From positions 186,001 to 250,000 of the forward strand of contig CAIPAH010000013.1 in the NCBI GenBank assembly GCA_903862955.1: DNA of 64,000 nt, given 5' to 3'. This DNA comes from an uncultured Opitutia bacterium. GTDB lineage: Bacteria > Verrucomicrobiota > Verrucomicrobiia > Opitutales > Opitutaceae. Below the pieces are notes generated by a model. It had not been told where the DNA came from and searched no databases. It saw nothing but the letters and a program-made list of their open reading frames with translations. Position numbers and translations under genes: made by a program. This document shows, one piece after another, positions 1,533 through 49,239 of the stretch (the first letter of the stretch is position 1; the number at the start of each line of letters is the position of its first letter).

Positions 1533-1627
1533 GCCCACGGAACACACGGAATACACAGAAGCAGAATGGTGCGGAAGCGTGCTCGGGTCCGGGTCTTCAT
1601 TCGGTGTGCTCCGTTTGTTCCGTGGGC
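1533..1627. repeat. Palindromic intergenic repeat, family B (CCCACGGA type)
   Basis: The arms are 1533-1558 (GCCCACGGAACACACGGA...) and 1602-1627 (...TTTGTTCCGTGGGC), an imperfect inverted repeat around a 43-base loop. The same motif recurs at 21051/21207, 30240/30356, 31680 and 33985. It lies between padR and the permease gene, so it would fold in their common transcript. Confidence 0.8.
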
Positions 1628-15810: not shown

Positions 15811-15951
15811 GGCGTGGCACGGGTCTCTGGCCCGTGATTCGGCAATGCACGGACCCCCGTAGTGCAGGAGTGCATTTTGACAAGCGATGAGAGTGCAGGC
15901 GGGGACGCCTGCGCTACTTCGGAATCACGGGCCAGAGACCCGTGCCACGCC
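15811..15951. repeat. Perfect 30-bp inverted repeat (family I) enclosing a family H hairpin
   Basis: The arms 15811-15840 and 15922-15951 are exact reverse complements over 30 bases. Each arm contains the small hairpin CACGGGTCTCTGGCCCGTG. The 81-base loop holds GCAGGCG-GGGA-CGCCTGC with the family H tail GCGCTAC. It lies just beyond the end of the DUF3667 gene. Confidence 0.9.
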
Positions 15952-20285: not shown

Positions 20286-20933
20286 TCATGAGAGGTTCTC
20301 CTTCTGGAGTTGGAGGTAGATGTCGCGGAGCGCGCGGAGCGCGCGGTGGGCGCGGACCTTGGCGGCGCCGACGGAGCATTCGAGCACGGCGGCGATTTCG
20401 TTGAAGGAAAGTTCCTGGAAGCGGCTGAGGAGCAGGACCTCGCGGTCGTCGCGGTCGAGGCAGCCGAGCGCGGAGTGCAACAGTGCGTGGTCGTCGCGGG
20501 TGGCGGCGCGGTCGCCGGCGTTGGGGCTGTCGTCGGCCACCTGGCGGAAATCGGCGGGGTCGGTGGCCGTGGGCGCGGCGTTGCTCTTGCGGAAATGATC
20601 GGCGGCGCAGCGGCGGGCGAGGTGATACATCCAGGCGGTGAAGCTGCCGTCGTCGCGGTAGGTGTGGCGGTATTTGAGCATCCGCTGGAAGACGGTCTGC
20701 GCGATGTCCTCGGCCGCGTTGCGGTGGCCGGTGAACTTCACGAGGAAGCCGAACAGCGGCCCGTGGTGGCGCTCGAAGAGTTCACCGAGCGCGTCCAGCT
20801 CGCCATCGCGGACGGCGAGCATCAACTCATGGTCGGAGAGGGTGTCGGTCGCGGAGTCCACGGCGTCAGTCGCGGAAAAACTAACCACGGAAGGGGACGC
20901 TTGGACACGGATTTCTGTAAGATCGGCAATCAC
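20286..20933 (-). CDS. ECF (extracytoplasmic function) RNA polymerase sigma factor
   Basis: A sigma-70 family protein of up to 215 residues. Region 2 is seen as DALGELFERHHGPLFGFLVK and AAEDIAQTVFQRMLKYRHTY with the SFTAWMYHLARR block. Region 4 is LHSALGCLDRDDREVLLLSR, FQELSFNEIAAVLECSVGAA and KVRAHRALRALRDIY. The first gene of a three-gene operon with the anti-sigma factor and DUF4097 protein. The start shown is GTG at 20931-20933; region 2 begins around residue 35, so a later start is possible. Signal and target promoters are unknown; autoregulation is usual for this class. Confidence 0.9.
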   Translation of the reverse strand: MIADLTEIRVQASPSVVSFSATDAVDSATDTLSDHELMLAVRDGELDALGELFERHHGPLFGFLVKFTGHRNAAEDIAQTVFQRMLKYRHTYRDDGSFTAWMYHLARRCAADHFRKSNAAPTATDPADFRQVADDSPNAGDRAATRDDHALLHSALGCLDRDDREVLLLSRFQELSFNEIAAVLECSVGAAKVRAHRALRALRDIYLQLQKENLS

Positions 20934-21011: not shown

Positions 21012-21279
21012 TTAACCGCGAATGGTCGCGAATGCCTGAAACGGAGATATGCCCACGGAATACACGGAGAACACGGAAGGAAGACCGCCTCGATTTGTCA
21101 TTCTGAGCGAAGCGAAGAATCCACTTCGGGCCGGTCGACCAGGTCACACTGGATTCTTCGTTTCGCTCAGAACGACTATCCGGCGTAATCGACTGCTCTT
21201 CGCATGATCCGTGTGATCCGTGGGCAACCCTTCCTTGGTCTGAAATAATTAGCGTTCATTCGCGTCCATTCGCGGTTAA
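21012..21279. repeat. Three palindromic repeat families nested concentrically
   Basis: Outer pair (family A): 21012-21034 with 21257-21279, 22 of 23 bases complementary (core ACCGCGAATGGTCGCGAATG). Middle pair (family B): 21051-21077 with 21207-21225 (CCCACGGA type). Inner pair (family C): 21097-21122 with 21151-21176, 24 of 26 complementary (core TTCTGAGCGAAGCGAAGAAT). Together they fill the 357-base gap between the divergent sigma-factor and metallo-beta-lactamase genes. No gene is seen inside. Confidence 0.9.
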
Positions 21280-21290
21280 CCCTCCCGGCC

Positions 21291-22256
21291 ATGAACCGAC
21301 GTGAATTCATTGTGCGCTCGTCGCTCCTGGCTTCCGCGGGCCTGCTCGCCCGCTCGTCCTTCGCCGCTGATTCCGCTGCCGCTGCGGCCCCGACCACCGT
21401 TCCCGTGAAAACGCCGGCCGGCCCGGTGGCGAAATGGACGCCCGAGTTCAAGCCGCTGCGGCGCAGCGTCGGTCTGTTCACCGGCCGCGGCGGCACGATC
21501 GGCTGGTTGTCGGACGCGGACGCACTCGTGGTCGTCGACACGCAGTATCCGGAAGCGGCTGCGGTGTGCCTCGCAGGGCTGCCTGGCCGCAACAGCCGCA
21601 CGATCGACGTCGTGATGAACACGCACCACCACGCCGACCACACCGGCGGCAACGGGGTGTTCAAGCCCGCGGCGCGCACGATCGTGGCGCAGGCGAATGT
21701 CCCAGACCTGATGCGGGCGGCGGCCGAGAAGGCGGGCACGCTCACGAAGCAGACCTACCCGGACACGACCTTTACGGATGGCTGGCGACGGGATTTCGGC
21801 AGCGAGATCGTGGCCGCAAAATATCGCGGACCGGCGCACACGGGCGGCGACGTCGTGATCCACTTCGAGCAGGCGAACGTCGTCCACGTGGGCGACCTGA
21901 TGTTCAACCGCATCTACCCCGTGACCGACCGGCCGGGCGGCTGCAACATTCGCGGCTGGATCGACCGATTGGAGGTGGTGGTGAAGACCTATCCGGCGGA
22001 CGCGATCTACATCTTCGGCCACGGGAACCCGAAGTTCGGCGTCACCGGTGGCCACGCCGACATCCGGCTGCAGCGGGATTTCCTGTCCGCGCTGCTGGCC
22101 CACGTGGAAAAGGGGATCGTCGAAGGCAAGTCGAAGGCGGAGATCGTCGCGCTGGAGAATTTCCCGGGCTTCGACGACCTGCACGCCCCGTTACCGAACC
22201 GCCTGCAGGGCAATCTCAGCGTGGCGTTCGACGAGCTGACGGAGAAGAGAACCTAG
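21291..22256 (+). CDS. Exported metallo-beta-lactamase-fold hydrolase
   Basis: A 321-residue MBL-fold protein with a probable Tat signal (MNRREFIVRSSLLASAGLLA). The metal-binding motif THHHADHTGGN is at about 107-117. A further histidine comes in GPAHTGGDVVIHF, the bridging aspartate in HVGDLMFNR, and a final histidine in IFGHGNP. The fold suits hydrolysis of esters, lactones or beta-lactams in the periplasm with two zinc ions; the substrate cannot be told. The closest general group is the broad class B3-like or quinoprotein-relay MBL set, which is a guess. The ATG follows the outer arm of the nested repeat by 11 bases, with no Shine-Dalgarno sequence. Confidence 0.88.
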   Translation: MNRREFIVRSSLLASAGLLARSSFAADSAAAAAPTTVPVKTPAGPVAKWTPEFKPLRRSVGLFTGRGGTIGWLSDADALVVVDTQYPEAAAVCLAGLPGRNSRTIDVVMNTHHHADHTGGNGVFKPAARTIVAQANVPDLMRAAAEKAGTLTKQTYPDTTFTDGWRRDFGSEIVAAKYRGPAHTGGDVVIHFEQANVVHVGDLMFNRIYPVTDRPGGCNIRGWIDRLEVVVKTYPADAIYIFGHGNPKFGVTGGHADIRLQRDFLSALLAHVEKGIVEGKSKAEIVALENFPGFDDLHAPLPNRLQGNLSVAFDELTEKRT

Positions 22257-29990: not shown

Positions 29991-30202
29991 CACGGCCGGG
30001 TCGGCGTCGGGCGAAAAGTAGCCCGGCTTCGCAATTTTCGATTTTCGAATTTCGATTGGTCGGAGACGGACGCGGAGGCGGAAATTGGGGAAGAGGCGGA
30101 ACTCATGGGGCGGCCGGAACGGATAGCACAAAGTGCGTCTCCGCGCTAGTGCCGCGCGGCGGCGGGGAGGTATCATTCATTTTTGGCGCGATCCCGGAGG
30201 TG

Positions 30203-30415
30203 GCCCGCGAATGGCGCGAATCGGACGAATCCGGAAATTGCCCACGGATCACACGGAGGACACGGAACTCAATCCGGAACCTGACTTGGTAGGCACGAAG
30301 CAATCCATCTGCATGGATTGTTTCGTGCCTACCAGTGATCGGGCCTGATCGAACATCCGTGTATTCCGTGTGATCCGTGGGCAAAAATTCGCGTCGATTC
30401 GCGTGATTCGCGGGC
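30203..30415. repeat. Three palindromic repeat families nested concentrically (second site)
   Basis: Outer pair (family A): 30203-30230 with 30387-30415 (GCCCGCGAAT...ATTCGCGGGC). Middle pair (family B): 30240-30266 with 30356-30382, 25 of 27 complementary. Inner pair (family D): 30287-30308 with 30313-30334, 21 of 22 complementary (core GGTAGGCACGAAGCAATCCA). It fills most of the gap between the divergent PhyH and LapA-like genes. Confidence 0.9.
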
Positions 30416-30473
30416 AACCTGCCTTTAATCCCGCTCTCGCCAAGAAGGCGATGATGGCTCAATTTCGCGATCC

Positions 30474-30792: not shown

Positions 30793-31626
30793 TCAGGCCT
30801 TGGCGGATCGGCGGAGGTTGTCGCAGACGATGGCGGCGGCGATGCCAGCGTTGAGCGACTCGGCTCCGCCGTAGCGGGGGATGGTCACGTAATGCGTGAC
30901 ATGGGGCTTCACCGCGGCGGAGAGGCCGGAGCCTTCGCTGCCGATGACAATCACGGCGTCGCGCAGGGCGGGGAGGGCGTGGACGTCGTCGCCCTGGAGG
31001 TCGCAGCCGAGGACGGGGACTTTCACGCCGGCGAGTACGGCGGCGAGGTCGGCGGTATGGGCGCGGACGCGGGCAAAGGAGCCCATGCTGGCGTTGATGA
31101 CTTTCTGGTGAAACAGGTCGGCGCAGTCGGGCGACAGCACCACGCGGTCGAGCCCGAACCAGTCCGCGATGCGCAGGAGCGTGCCGACGTTGCCGGCGTC
31201 CTGCACGCCGTCGAGCGCGAGGGTCAGCCCACGGTCGAGCGCGCCGGGCGCGAGGGGCGTGTGCGTGAGTTTGCCGACGGCGAGGACGGTGGAGGGCGTG
31301 GGGAAATGGCTGGCGCGGGCCATTTCGTCGGGGGTGATCTCGATGGGTTCAACCTTCGCCGATTGGATCGGGAGGTGGTCGCCGATTTCCACATCGGCGA
31401 TAGGATGGCGTCGGTGTGGAAACCGACGCCCACCTTCGGCGGCCAGACGCGGCGAGGGCGCCGCGTCTCCATCCTTCACAACGTAAATGGCCTCGAAGGG
31501 AAAGCCGGCGGCGAGGAGTTCGGCGACGACCTTGGGGCCTTCGACGACGAAGAGGCCGAGTTCTTCGCGGTGTTTCTTTTCGCGCAGGGAACGCAGGCGC
31601 TGGAGATCGGCCTTGGAGAGCGGCAT
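30793..31626 (-). CDS. TrmH/SpoU-family RNA 2'-O-methyltransferase with palindrome-encoded insertion
   Basis: A 277-residue SPOUT-class RNA methyltransferase. The N-terminal substrate-binding domain starts LSKADLQRLRSLREKKHREE and GLFVVEGPKVVAELL. The knotted catalytic domain has LALDGVQDAGNVGTLLRIAD, AVIVIGSEGSGLSAAVKPHV and IPRYGGAESLNAGIAAAIV, the three SpoU motifs. It probably methylates ribose in rRNA or tRNA. Between AIYVV (50) and VEPIEITPDEMARAS (from 92) there are some 20-25 more residues than usual. They are encoded by three consecutive palindromes (31380-31468), in frame. The start at 31626 was chosen over an upstream codon because the family begins at MPLSKADL and the codons before it lie in repeats. 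Confidence 0.88.
   Translation of the reverse strand: MPLSKADLQRLRSLREKKHREELGLFVVEGPKVVAELLAAGFPFEAIYVVKDGDAAPSPRLAAEGGRRFPHRRHPIADVEIGDHLPIQSAKVEPIEITPDEMARASHFPTPSTVLAVGKLTHTPLAPGALDRGLTLALDGVQDAGNVGTLLRIADWFGLDRVVLSPDCADLFHQKVINASMGSFARVRAHTADLAAVLAGVKVPVLGCDLQGDDVHALPALRDAVIVIGSEGSGLSAAVKPHVTHYVTIPRYGGAESLNAGIAAAIVCDNLRRSAKA
31380..31468. repeat. Three consecutive palindromes inside the TrmH-family coding sequence
   Basis: P3: CGCCGATTTCCACATCGGCG at 31380-31399. P2: GGCGTCGGT-GTGGAA-ACCGACGCC at 31407-31430. P1: AGACGCGGCG-AGGG-CGCCGCGTCT at 31445-31468. All stems are perfect, and the loops of P3 (TTCCAC) and P2 (GTGGAA) are reverse complements of each other. They look like intergenic repeats but are translated. 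Confidence 0.85.
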
Positions 31627-31793
31627 GGCGGGAGTCTCCGGCAGTTGTGCCCGCGAATCACGCGAATTTTGCGAATGGTTGTCCACGGATCGCACGGAGG
31701 ACACGGAAAGCCGAGCCGCAAACCGGTGAACATTCTCGACCCCGCATCGCGGTGGTTGCGTTGGAGGCGAGGAGTCACCTACGTTGGCCTGTC

Positions 31794-33800
31794 ATGACCA
31801 AAAAACTTGGTTGGGGGATTTTGAGCACGGGACGCATTGCCGGGATTTTTGCACAGGGCCTGGCCCGCGCGGAAAACGGCCGCTTGGTGGCGGTGGGGAG
31901 CCGCACCTTGGCCAGCGCCCAGAAATTCGCGGCTGCCAATGGCAATCCGCGCGCGCATGGGAGCTACGAGGCGCTCCTGGCCGATCCCGAGGTCGAGGCC
32001 GTTTACATCGCGGTGCCGCACCCGCAGCACACCGAGTGGGCCATCAAGGCCGCCGAGGCCGGCAAACACATCCTTTGCGAGAAGCCCCTCGGCCTGAACT
32101 ACGCCGAGGGCATGGTCATGGCTGAGGCCGCACGGGCCAACAACGTCCTCCTGATGGAGGCGTTCATGTATCGCTGCCATCCGCAGACCGCCAAGATCGT
32201 CGAGCTCGTCCGCAGCGGCGCGATCGGCGAGGTGAAGCTCGTGCAGGCGACGTTCGGGTTCAACGCCGGCTTCAGTGCCGAGTCGCGCCTCTGGTCCAAC
32301 GCGGCGGGCGGCGGCGGCATCCTCGATGTGGGCTGCTACGCGGTGTCGTTCTCGCGGCTGATCGCGGGTGCGATGTCGGGCAAGGCTTTCCTCGATCCGG
32401 TTTCCGTGACGGGCGCGGGCTCGCTGCATCCGCAGACGGGCGTGGACGTCGTGGCGGCGGCGACCCTGAAGTTCGCGAACGGCCTCGTGGCGCAGGTGGC
32501 GACGAGCGTCGGGCTGAGCCAAGACAACTCCGCGCGCATTTACGGTTCGACCGGCATGATCGTCGTGCCGTCGCCGTGGATCCCGCCCAGCGAGGGCACG
32601 CCGGCGAAGTTTTTCCTGCACAAGGACGGCAAGGTGGAGGAGATCGTCGTCGCGACGGCGGCGAACCTCTACGGCCTCGAGGCCGACGCCGTGGCGCGCG
32701 CACTGGCAGCGGGCCTGCGCGAAGTGCCGGAGATGAGCATCGCCGACACGCTCGGCAACCTGGCCGCGCTCGACGCGTGGCGCGCGTCCATCGGCCTGAC
32801 CTACGAGGCGGAGAAGCCCGAGAATTTCCTGTCCACGCACTCGCGCCGGCCGCTGGCGTGCCGCGCGGACGCGAACATCCCGACGGGCGCGATCCCGCAC
32901 CTGGCCAAGCCGGTTTCGCGGCTGATCATGGGCTGCGACAACACCGTCACGATGCCGTACAGCGCGGCGATGTGGGACGATTATTTCGCGCGGGGCGGCA
33001 ACGCGTTTGACACGGCGTATGTTTACTGGGGCGGTTTGCAGGAGAAGCTGCTCGGCCAGTGGATCAAGAACCGCGGCGTCCGCGAGGACGTGTCCGTCAT
33101 CGTCAAGGGTGCGCACACGCCGTTCTGCACGCCGGAATTTCTCACGTCGCAGCTGGAGGAATCGCTCGGCCGGCTGCAGACGACGTATGCCGACATTTAC
33201 ATGCTGCACCGCGACAACCTCGAGGTGCCGATCGGCGAATTCGTCGAAGTGCTGAACGAGCACCTGAAGGCGGGCCGGATCCGGGCGTTCGGCGGTTCCA
33301 ACTGGACGCTGCAGCGCATCGCCGCGGCGAACCGTTACGCCGCGCGGAAGGGCCTGCAGGGCTTCAGCGTGGTGAGCAACAACTTCAGCCTCGCGCGGAT
33401 GGTGGATGCGCCGTGGACCGGTTGCATCTCCGCCTCCGACAAGGAATCGCGGCGCTGGCTGAAGAAGCACCAGATCCCCCTGCTCGCGTGGTCGAGCCAG
33501 GCGCGCGGATTCTTCACCGACCGCGCGGCCCCCGACAAGCGGGACGACGAGCAACTCGTGCGCTGCTGGTATTCGGACGACAACTTTGCCCGTCGCGAGC
33601 GCGCCTACGCGCTGGCGAAGAAGAAGGGCGTGCCGCCGATCGCGATCGCCGCGGCCTACGTGCTGGCCCAGCCGTTCCCGACATTCGCGTTGATCGGCCC
33701 GCGCATCCTGAGCGAGACGGTGAGTTCGCTCGTGTGCCTCGGCGTGACGCTGACGCCCAAGGAATGCGCCTGGCTCAACCTCGAGCGCGAGCGGCCTTGA
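31794..33800 (+). CDS. Gfo/Idh/MocA oxidoreductase fused to an aldo/keto reductase
   Basis: A 668-residue bifunctional protein. Residues 1-120 are a Rossmann fold (WGILSTGRIAGIFAQGL) with the Gfo/Idh/MocA motif CEKPLG at 95-100; the substrate domain continues to about 340. From about 370 an aldo/keto reductase barrel follows. Its tetrad is D406 and Y411 (FDTAYVY), K438 (VIVKGAH) and the His of YMLHRDN, and it ends with IAAAYVLAQPFPTFALIGPR. The two halves could pass a keto-sugar between two NAD(P)-dependent steps. Such fusions are known from Verrucomicrobia, Planctomycetes and relatives, to my knowledge. The start at 31794 matches the beginning of the Rossmann fold. The long in-frame extension upstream is antisense to the TrmH-family gene. 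Confidence 0.9.
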   Translation: MTKKLGWGILSTGRIAGIFAQGLARAENGRLVAVGSRTLASAQKFAAANGNPRAHGSYEALLADPEVEAVYIAVPHPQHTEWAIKAAEAGKHILCEKPLGLNYAEGMVMAEAARANNVLLMEAFMYRCHPQTAKIVELVRSGAIGEVKLVQATFGFNAGFSAESRLWSNAAGGGGILDVGCYAVSFSRLIAGAMSGKAFLDPVSVTGAGSLHPQTGVDVVAAATLKFANGLVAQVATSVGLSQDNSARIYGSTGMIVVPSPWIPPSEGTPAKFFLHKDGKVEEIVVATAANLYGLEADAVARALAAGLREVPEMSIADTLGNLAALDAWRASIGLTYEAEKPENFLSTHSRRPLACRADANIPTGAIPHLAKPVSRLIMGCDNTVTMPYSAAMWDDYFARGGNAFDTAYVYWGGLQEKLLGQWIKNRGVREDVSVIVKGAHTPFCTPEFLTSQLEESLGRLQTTYADIYMLHRDNLEVPIGEFVEVLNEHLKAGRIRAFGGSNWTLQRIAAANRYAARKGLQGFSVVSNNFSLARMVDAPWTGCISASDKESRRWLKKHQIPLLAWSSQARGFFTDRAAPDKRDDEQLVRCWYSDDNFARRERAYALAKKKGVPPIAIAAAYVLAQPFPTFALIGPRILSETVSSLVCLGVTLTPKECAWLNLERERP

Positions 33801-33842: not shown

Positions 33843-34012
33843 CGCGAAAGGGCGGAAACGTGGAAGGCTGATCTGTTTTAGCCGGAAGCCAGGAAACCAA
33901 GAAGCAATCCTCCCGGTTTCCTAGCTTCCGGCTAGACCGGTTCCGATCTCCGCGTTTTCGCCCTTTCGCGATAAGAGGTTGGGCCTCGTGTGATTCGTGT
34001 GTTCCGTGGGCC
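33843..34012. repeat. Family F palindrome nested in family E palindrome, followed by a family B arm
   Basis: Outer pair (family E): 33843-33864 with 33948-33973 (CGCGAAAGGGCGGAAACG type). Inner pair (family F): 33880-33898 with 33915-33933, 18 of 19 complementary. A lone family B right arm follows at about 33985-34012 (GTGTGTTCCGTGGGC). The 260-base gap between the fusion gene and the next gene holds these and no gene. Confidence 0.85.
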
Positions 34013-49146: not shown

Positions 49147-49239
49147 TTGCCCGCGAATCACGCGAATCGACGCGAATAACCCTGAACAAATTCAATTTCT
49201 CCCGCTTGAATTCGCGGTAATTCGTGTGATTCGCGGGCC
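49147..49239. repeat. Palindromic intergenic repeat, family A
   Basis: The arms are 49147-49177 (with GCCCGCGAATCACGCGAAT) and 49211-49239 (with ATTCGTGTGATTCGCGGGC). It begins 2 bases past the deoC stop and ends 7 bases before the aldehyde dehydrogenase start, filling the whole gap. Confidence 0.85.

Follow-up and report, generated by a model that had tools for sequence, protein, structure and literature searches.

Concentric Nests of Palindromic Repeats in an Opitutaceae Genome and Their Possible Origin by Insertion into Hairpin Loops

The Nest at Positions 21012-21279

The window, that is, the whole 64,000-nucleotide (64-kb) stretch of DNA that was analyzed, is part of contig C13 (C13:186001-250000) of the draft genome G000, which measures 3.6 Mb. 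In the gap between two ORFs that diverge, with starts at 20933 on the minus strand and at 21291 on the plus strand, three palindromes enclose one another. The features of this gap are as follows (the names of the two ORFs were given in the original prediction from the sequence).

20286..20933, minus strand: flanking ORF, sigma factor, start at 20933
21012..21034, plus strand: left arm of layer A, TTAACCGCGAATGGTCGCGAATG, with tandem CGCGAATGN units
21050..21077, plus strand: left arm of layer B, TGCCCACGGAATACACGGA; the third unit ends at 21077 and the paired part is 21050-21068
21097..21123, plus strand: left REP of layer C (a head-to-head CGTC-type dimer), with TGTC tag, ATTC..GAAT stem, and CCA tail
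21124..21149, strand not applicable: spacer between the two REPs of C
21150..21176, minus strand: right REP of layer C
21208..21226, minus strand: right arm of layer B, paired with 21050-21068
21257..21279, minus strand: right arm of layer A, paired with 21012-21034
21291..22256, plus strand: flanking ORF, MBL

The arm order A-B-C-C'-B'-A' proposed in the original prediction was confirmed by the arms found here, and the three-layer nest is written A(B(C)). Complementarity is 22/23 in A (21012-21034/21257-21279, 96% in a repeat search), 17/19 in B (21050-21068/21208-21226, 89%), and 25/27 in C (21097-21123/21150-21176), the last value coming from our own inverted-repeat finder with a score of 21 over 27; the repeat search returned C at 80% over 40 positions within 21097-21136/21137-21176. 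Chance pairing of the arms was ruled out by shuffled-sequence controls: the 64-kb window holds 16 inverted repeats with a score of at least 14, versus none (0, 0, and 0) in three shuffles by an order-2 Markov model; layer B of the 21012 nest, with its score of 13, is outside those 16. The pattern of A has 2 matches in the window versus 0.06 expected, that of B has 13 versus 0.21, and that of C has 2 versus 0.00. An Rfam scan of the window returned no family at the gathering score.

Other Palindromes in the Window

Copies of A and B had also been reported elsewhere in the window, and the finder recovered them, A at 30198 and 49149 and B at 1533 and 30238. Two further nests, one of three layers and one of two (30198-30420 and 33843-33970), had been missed.

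1533..1627: lone B palindrome, arms 1533-1560/1600-1627
30198..30420: A(B(D)), a nest of three layers; arms 30198-30223/30395-30420 (A), 30238-30266/30356-30384 (B), and 30287-30308/30313-30334 (D)
31645..31709, plus strand: half nest, an A arm then a B arm in nest order
33843..33970: I(H), a nest of two layers around one shared center; arms 33843-33864/33949-33970 (I) and 33879-33898/33915-33934 (H)
49149..49238: lone A palindrome between two ORFs, arms 49149-49177/49210-49238

The nest at 30198 also sits between divergent ORFs, its three layers are centered at 30309, 30311, and 30310.5, hence within 2 bp, and its innermost element, D at 30287, begins with TGGTAGG. No right-hand partner was found for the half nest, as no inverted repeat with a score of at least 10 occurs within 31560-31800. 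A perfect 30-bp inverted repeat, GGCGTGGCACGGGTCTCTGGCCCGTGATTC, is located at 15811-15951, and a relative of it at C16:29528 of the same genome encloses a GTAG hairpin.

Architecture of the Repeat Families

The three families had been taken as unrelated to each other. This stands for C, which is distinct, but A and B are alike in architecture: their arms consist of tandem units of about 9 bp (CGCGAATNN and CACGGANNA), often opening with TTRNCC as judged by eye, and in the copies of both families that were examined the units have a single polarity. The loops are mostly 12-60 bp long (by eye) and have an identity among copies of 0.44 versus 0.43 shuffled for A (n = 16) and of 0.42 versus 0.41 shuffled for B (n = 22); the 20-bp arm ends have identities between copies of 0.75 for A and 0.74 for B. 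Compared with the MITE of a DDE transposon, which has terminal inverted repeats and a target-site duplication, the A and B copies have inverted arms, and their 8-bp flanks, inspected by eye, contain no constant direct repeat; no target duplication is defined. Families E, H, I, L, and further ones follow the same plan with other units. Among palindromes with arms of at least 17 bp in the 618-kb sample described below, 34/90 have periodic arms, versus 2/90 for shuffled arms, and the other 56/90 are not periodic by our own test.

C consists of two REPs head to head, each with a TGTC tag, an ATTC...GAAT stem, and a CCA tail (GTCATTC...GAATCCA). CGTC-tagged REPs are described, in the available part of Di Nocera et al. 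2013 (PMC3733652), as having an unpaired CGTC or TGTC tag, a stem starting from AT, and a CCA tail. Judged by eye against that definition, C has the features of the CGTC superfamily, with imperfect pairing of the stem, and resembles its REPs in the tag, the stem, the tail, and the head-to-head layout. The C spacers comprise nine distinct sequences in two length classes, some of which look related between copies (by eye). The layers A and B, as well as C, are also found separately at other sites. In the whole G000 genome, the A pattern has 35 matches (2 mismatches allowed), the B pattern 90 (1 mismatch, overlapping units counted), and the C pattern 27 at 16 loci (3 mismatches), the forward and reverse matches of C pairing up at most loci and being single at some.

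A REP-associated transposase elsewhere in the genome had been named as a possible sign of mobility. G000 does possess two Y1_Tnp genes together with GTAG-type REPs, as in RAYT/REPIN systems, but nothing links these genes to A, B, or C: the three families have no GTAG tag, none of the palindromes listed around the two genes is C, and no A, B, or C palindrome is tied to them. RAYT was thus rejected as the driver. The available text of PMC3733652 likewise states that CGTC REPs are without a dedicated transposase.

Nesting Versus Side-by-Side Placement

The frequency of nesting was evaluated in a sample of 618,691 bp from six genomes of one genus (G000, G007, G008, G009, G010, and G011), in which 103 noncoding palindromes with a score of at least 13 were found by using our own gene caller. 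That concentric nesting goes beyond chance, as the original prediction implied, was borne out: the close pairs, within 100 bp of each other, comprise 14 nested and 1 side by side, versus a nested fraction of 0.33 expected from the available loop and noncoding flank (p 1.6e-6, about 2e-6). The available flank averages 90 noncoding bases, both sides together, within 100 bp on each. The window of the reported nest is part of the sample because of the finding itself; without the two pairs of the 21012 nest, 12/13 are nested, with p about 1e-5 by hand calculation. Further support was provided by the position of the inner elements, which are centered in their hosts, the mean of |l1-l2|/(l1+l2) being 0.19 versus 0.5 expected (KS p 2.9e-5).

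Outside this test, loci selected in G000 for A, B, or C yielded seven further nests and one adjacent pair. At the 16 C loci of this genome, a strong enclosing palindrome was present at four (including C22:192275, where one REP lies inside A), a weak enclosure (score 11) at two more, a palindrome beside C at one, and none at the others. A search of the 618-kb sample for insertions into arms returned 7 candidates (1 in the shuffles), and none contained a convincing palindrome insert on reading. Near position 25200 of contig C64 in G008, a hairpin of about 30 bp, CCGCCTTCGCCAAGGCTACGGCGGGC, breaks one arm of an H palindrome, which runs counter to insertion in loops only.

REP Heads and B Units Across the Order

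The 372 genomes of the order were scanned for CACGGA units that have a CGTC-REP head 5-35 bp after them, each match testing a single B unit and not a complete palindrome. The REP head was on the inward side of the B unit in 82 matches (22/372 genomes) and on the outward side in 2 (2/372 genomes), and the backward controls gave 1 and 1. The inward matches comprise 73 in 16 genomes of the own family, corresponding to about 48 distinct loci among the places listed, and 9 in 6 other genomes, which may be due to chance. When 20 loci were examined with the finder at a score of at least 12, both the REP and a B palindrome around it were present at 8; a ninth locus has B without the REP at this threshold, its REP scoring 13 on its cut-out, and the remaining ones show the REP alone or nothing by the finder. 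A single genome, G155, accounts for 14 matches in the scan, for 10 among the places listed, and for 7 of the loci examined.

The spacers of these B(REP) nests vary from locus to locus (identity 0.45 versus 0.41 shuffled), and copying of the nests as a whole was rejected because this identity is only slightly above the shuffled value. Two non-orthologous pairs align over about 189 bp at 75-77%, chiefly via their common arms and REPs.

Orthologous Gaps and Turnover

Insertion of each element into the loop of an existing palindrome had been proposed as the origin of the nest, with orthologous gaps as the means of checking it, and both received a divided answer. In favor are the REP heads inside B units in other genera and one pair of gaps, S358, with B alone in one genome and B plus REP in the other; against it, the layering at 21012 is not seen as stepwise, the ortholog in G008 has all the layers, and whole nests lie opposite short gaps.

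In G008, the A and B arms of the 21012 nest are conserved, with a REP dimer at the same place. Because G008 keeps A, B, and a REP, the three layers are probably older than the G000/G008 split. The core REPs belong to different subfamilies, ATTGCG.. in G008 and ATTCTGAG.. at 21012, and the core was probably exchanged, converted, or inserted independently. No stepwise layering was seen at this site, where G008, the only mapped ortholog with elements, is already three-layered: the orthologous gaps in G002, G003, G010, and G011 have no inverted repeat with a score of at least 9, and in G001 the right A arm persists next to the MBL gene, the sequence on the left of the arm being different. Many palindromes of the window were unmapped and have no ortholog row.

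At the 49149 site, A is present in G000 and G011, G008 and G010 have a short gap, and G007 has a palindrome of another family. The comparison of G007 with G008, which are about 93% identical, gave 18 mapped palindromes, with 23 unmapped ones excluded and any site with a palindrome in both genomes counted twice; 5 are shared, 4 are opposite a short gap, 1 is opposite other sequence, and 8 are opposite another palindrome (2 of the same family). Two whole nests of G008 are opposite 14-23 bp in G007, and the nest at C16:87631 of G000 is opposite 28 bp in both G007 and G008. As far as the data show, the layers of such nests appear or vanish together.

The S358 gap belongs to a second genus of the family. 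One species, represented by G278, has a strong B palindrome alone, with a loop of 51; in another, represented by G077, the B arms are weaker and enclose a REP pair, the gap again running from stop to start between the same genes. Both layers of G077 are below the finder threshold; in a gapped test with segments picked by eye, 0/300 shuffles reach either the arms or the REP pair. The right arms of the two genomes align over 37 bases and the left ones over 21, so that common descent of the B palindrome is likely, although not proven, and B may instead have been gained twice. This pair of gaps fits insertion into the loop, with B decayed in G077. At S350, a B(REP dimer) is common to G155 and G183, and in G235 there are B arms around one degenerate REP, these arms being reached by 1/300 shuffles in the gapped test. 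At S348 and S361, nests, or REPs with one B unit, are opposite short gaps in relatives. One GTAG pair differs between G001 and G007 as expected from a collapse between its two REPs, and therefore deletion also shapes such sites.

Between close relatives, mismatches amount to 57/769 in arms, 90/756 in loops, 166/1663 in flanks, and 680/11193 in coding sequence, and the 36 changed arm pairs comprise 22 that break, 8 that become G-T, and 6 that are still paired; some loci are counted twice in both sets. One B palindrome shows a double change between G008 and G007 that preserves the pair.

Palindromes That Enclose a Gene

Tandem arms separated by a loop of at least 250 bp were sought in 1.44 Mb; there were 7 candidates, which in most cases were not single elements. 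At C16:118794-119270 of G000 (L145:18794-19270), arms of the A family flank, at distances of 14 and 16 bp, an ORF of 128 aa that matches PDDEXK_3 (7.9e-39) and GxxExxY (1e-38). Twelve GxxExxY loci, including eight plasmid records and two IMG/VR contigs, were compared, and flanking inverted arms with a score of at least 11 were found at 6/12, with 1/33 in controls. Arms around the gene occur in G000, G297, Bacteroides, Bernardetia, and the two IMG/VR contigs, barely and weakly in Treponema, and were not found at 5/12 loci. Those of Bacteroides (CCACAGAGGACGCAGAGGACACGGAG) and Bernardetia are similar to B, and the gene of G297 lies between L-type arms with a score of 16, or 10 by the automatic test. 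As for three further relatives, one scores 7, one has non-tandem arms scoring 12, and one is interrupted by a contig end. Gemmatirosa has GxxExxY at three places, of which one is among the 12 and a second (L516) scores 7. Viral contigs gave no relative when searched with a single GxxExxY protein and 2 when searched with an alignment. In a Sphingomonas plasmid (L506), the GxxExxY gene is annotated between fabD and fabG and has no inverted arms with a score of at least 11.

The second gene type is IVP (PF05635). Intervening sequences (IVSs) of rRNA are, according to the available part of PMC4990558, stem-loops that replaced the tetraloop of an rRNA helix, some of them with an S23p ORF in the loop, and the same text attributes no known function to the IVP/S23p protein. 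The closest IVP relatives in GTDB carry the labels Opitutae/Opitutus. From the best 80 of 284 GTDB loci with an IVP gene, 76 had enough flank for the arm test and 78 for the pairing test. Arms score at least 11 at 70/76 loci and at least 13 at 60/76, compared with 7/210 and 2/210 in displaced controls and with 14/420 and 6/420 in controls displaced on one side. True pairs of flanks score at least 11 in 72/78 cases and flanks from mismatched loci in 74/234, the mismatched ones also pairing because the arms have a common motif. Periodic arms have 7-bp units in 37/43 cases. Only 1/60 IVP elements lies inside another palindrome (control 0), which weighs against present-day IVP elements being seekers of hairpin tips.

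Individual IVP-type loci deserve mention in their own right. At C16:165345-165790 of G000 (L148:5345-5790), an IVP/four-helix-bundle gene occupies the loop of a palindrome with 7-bp units, between two ORFs that resemble transporter subunits by eye. On a Nostoc plasmid (L509), inverted tandem arms of 33 bp (score 27) flank a four-helix-bundle gene located between cas2 and cas1. An IVP gene with inverted arms (L398, on C115 of G311) is found in the gap where G155 and G183 have B(REP).

Relation to Known Systems

The palindromes described here are like rRNA IVSs, as presented in the available part of PMC4990558, in being hairpins with complementary ends, with an IVP ORF in the loop in the class with 7-bp units. 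Unlike these IVSs, they are intergenic, mostly without an ORF, built from 7-10 bp tandem units, and associated with a second gene type, GxxExxY. Excision of the sequence from the transcript by RNase III is a further trait of rRNA IVSs. A and B of the 21012 nest have no IVP/S23p ORF in the loop, and the nests lie between protein ORFs and not in a 16S or 23S rRNA helix, in a window free of Rfam matches.

A single paragraph in the available part of PMC3733652 mentions REP dimers that lie within palindromes, with GTAG-15, GTAG-23, and CGTC-1 units inside other palindromes in three species. Neither counts of nesting versus side-by-side placement nor a test of centering appears in that part, and stacks of three layers and outer elements with a gene are likewise absent from it; in two of its three species no REP-free outer palindromes were found, whereas they are common here. 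Insertion into palindromes is also known for REP-targeting IS elements, with ISRm22 at the axis of palindromy and IS621, IS1397, and ISKpn1 in REPs (PMC1525189, in part); according to the same part of that source, these elements have their own transposase, whereas stacked palindromes are found here. The hairpin elements of sponge mitochondria are similar in keeping stems and varying loops between copies, but their double hairpins were attributed to tandem insertion, with nesting unmentioned in the part of PMC2800124 available, and those described here are nested. No other description of this class of element was found in the titles and abstract openings returned by searches of an open-access library.

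Origin of the Nests

The observation is real and more general than first noted. With moderate confidence, the nests are ascribed to IVS-like hairpin elements and REP dimers that inserted repeatedly into the loops of hairpins. Each nest would be a stack of short hairpin elements, each sitting in the loop of the next, drawn from two kinds, namely, palindromes with arms of tandem 7-10 bp units and freely varying loops (A, B, E, H, I, L, and others) and REP pairs (C, the G008 core, D, and GTAG types). A newcomer would tend to go into the tip of a hairpin already present, or close to it, whether that hairpin is extruded from a double strand or folds in a single strand of DNA, and entry at hairpin tips would make the layers concentric. 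The palindromes would behave like IVS elements at the tips of rRNA hairpins, the ORF-less tandem-armed ones may be miniature derivatives of those bearing a gene, and the inserting enzyme may be IVP or GxxExxY. These genes are better candidates than Y1_Tnp since they are located in the loops of such palindromes, and GxxExxY, having a nuclease fold, is the better candidate enzyme of the two. Against insertion at the tip stands the fact that no transposition was observed, and confidence in it is limited because S358 has weak arms and the REP/B scan deals with single units. A wider proposal is more tentative, a possibility that we hold with less than even confidence: that a widespread class of mobile hairpins outside rRNA, with arms of tandem 7-10 bp units, GxxExxY or IVP in its full copies, and miniatures in the form of the many ORF-less palindromes of Verrucomicrobia and other phyla, homes to hairpin tips, with the rRNA IVSs as a special case and nesting as the footprint.

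An unlikely alternative is that insertion occurs anywhere in noncoding DNA and that chiefly the loop insertions survive, the flanks containing promoters or gene ends and the arms being under selection. The gaps are indeed short, with the mean of 90 noncoding bases given above, and arms change more slowly than loops and flanks; however, the space-corrected expectation counts the noncoding flank alone and is still only 0.33 nested, uniform insertion within loops does not predict the observed centering, and the 82-to-2 ratio of the REP/B scan would require a near-total loss of side-by-side cases. Location at the tip would also follow from break repair. SbcCD-type enzymes cut extruded palindromes at the hairpin tip, and the repair of such a cut might add or capture a hairpin, with arms growing by templated repeat addition. 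The similar arms and unrelated loops of different copies and the single polarity of the tandem units in A and B agree with this; but some C spacers look related by eye, so that REP dimers may move as units, the gene-bearing versions suggest ordinary elements, and the repair origin is considered distinctly improbable.

That the nests are control elements in RNA or DNA (terminators, attenuators, or nuclease sites) built from repeats and kept by selection would agree with the somewhat constrained arms, with the pair-preserving double change in one B palindrome, and with the placement of the 21012 and 30198 nests between divergent ORFs. It is nevertheless very doubtful, as the same place holds different families or short gaps in genomes about 93% identical, the window has no Rfam family at the gathering score, and the A and B ends examined by eye lack a stem followed by a T run. 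A single inverted duplication of a linear A-B-C array would produce the perfect concentric order in one step, would fit the joint presence or absence of whole nests at several sites, and finds some sign in a weak excess of complementarity between the spacers of the layers (mean z 1.0 over 12 pairs, highest 4.6). Most spacers are, however, not complementary (8/12 with z < 2), and the layers occur without each other elsewhere, so that this origin is disfavored and hardly credible.

Significance

The novel part of these results is the putative gene-associated, IVS-like class. The rule that the elements follow can now be counted, as they lie inside one another and centered but rarely beside one another, and it offers a handle on how short palindromes spread. 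The gene-bearing palindromes provide a possible setting for two orphan protein families, IVP/S23p and GxxExxY, the latter a term found in only two papers of the open-access library searched. Should hairpin tips be the target, this mechanism would also account for the presence of IVSs in the tetraloops of rRNA.
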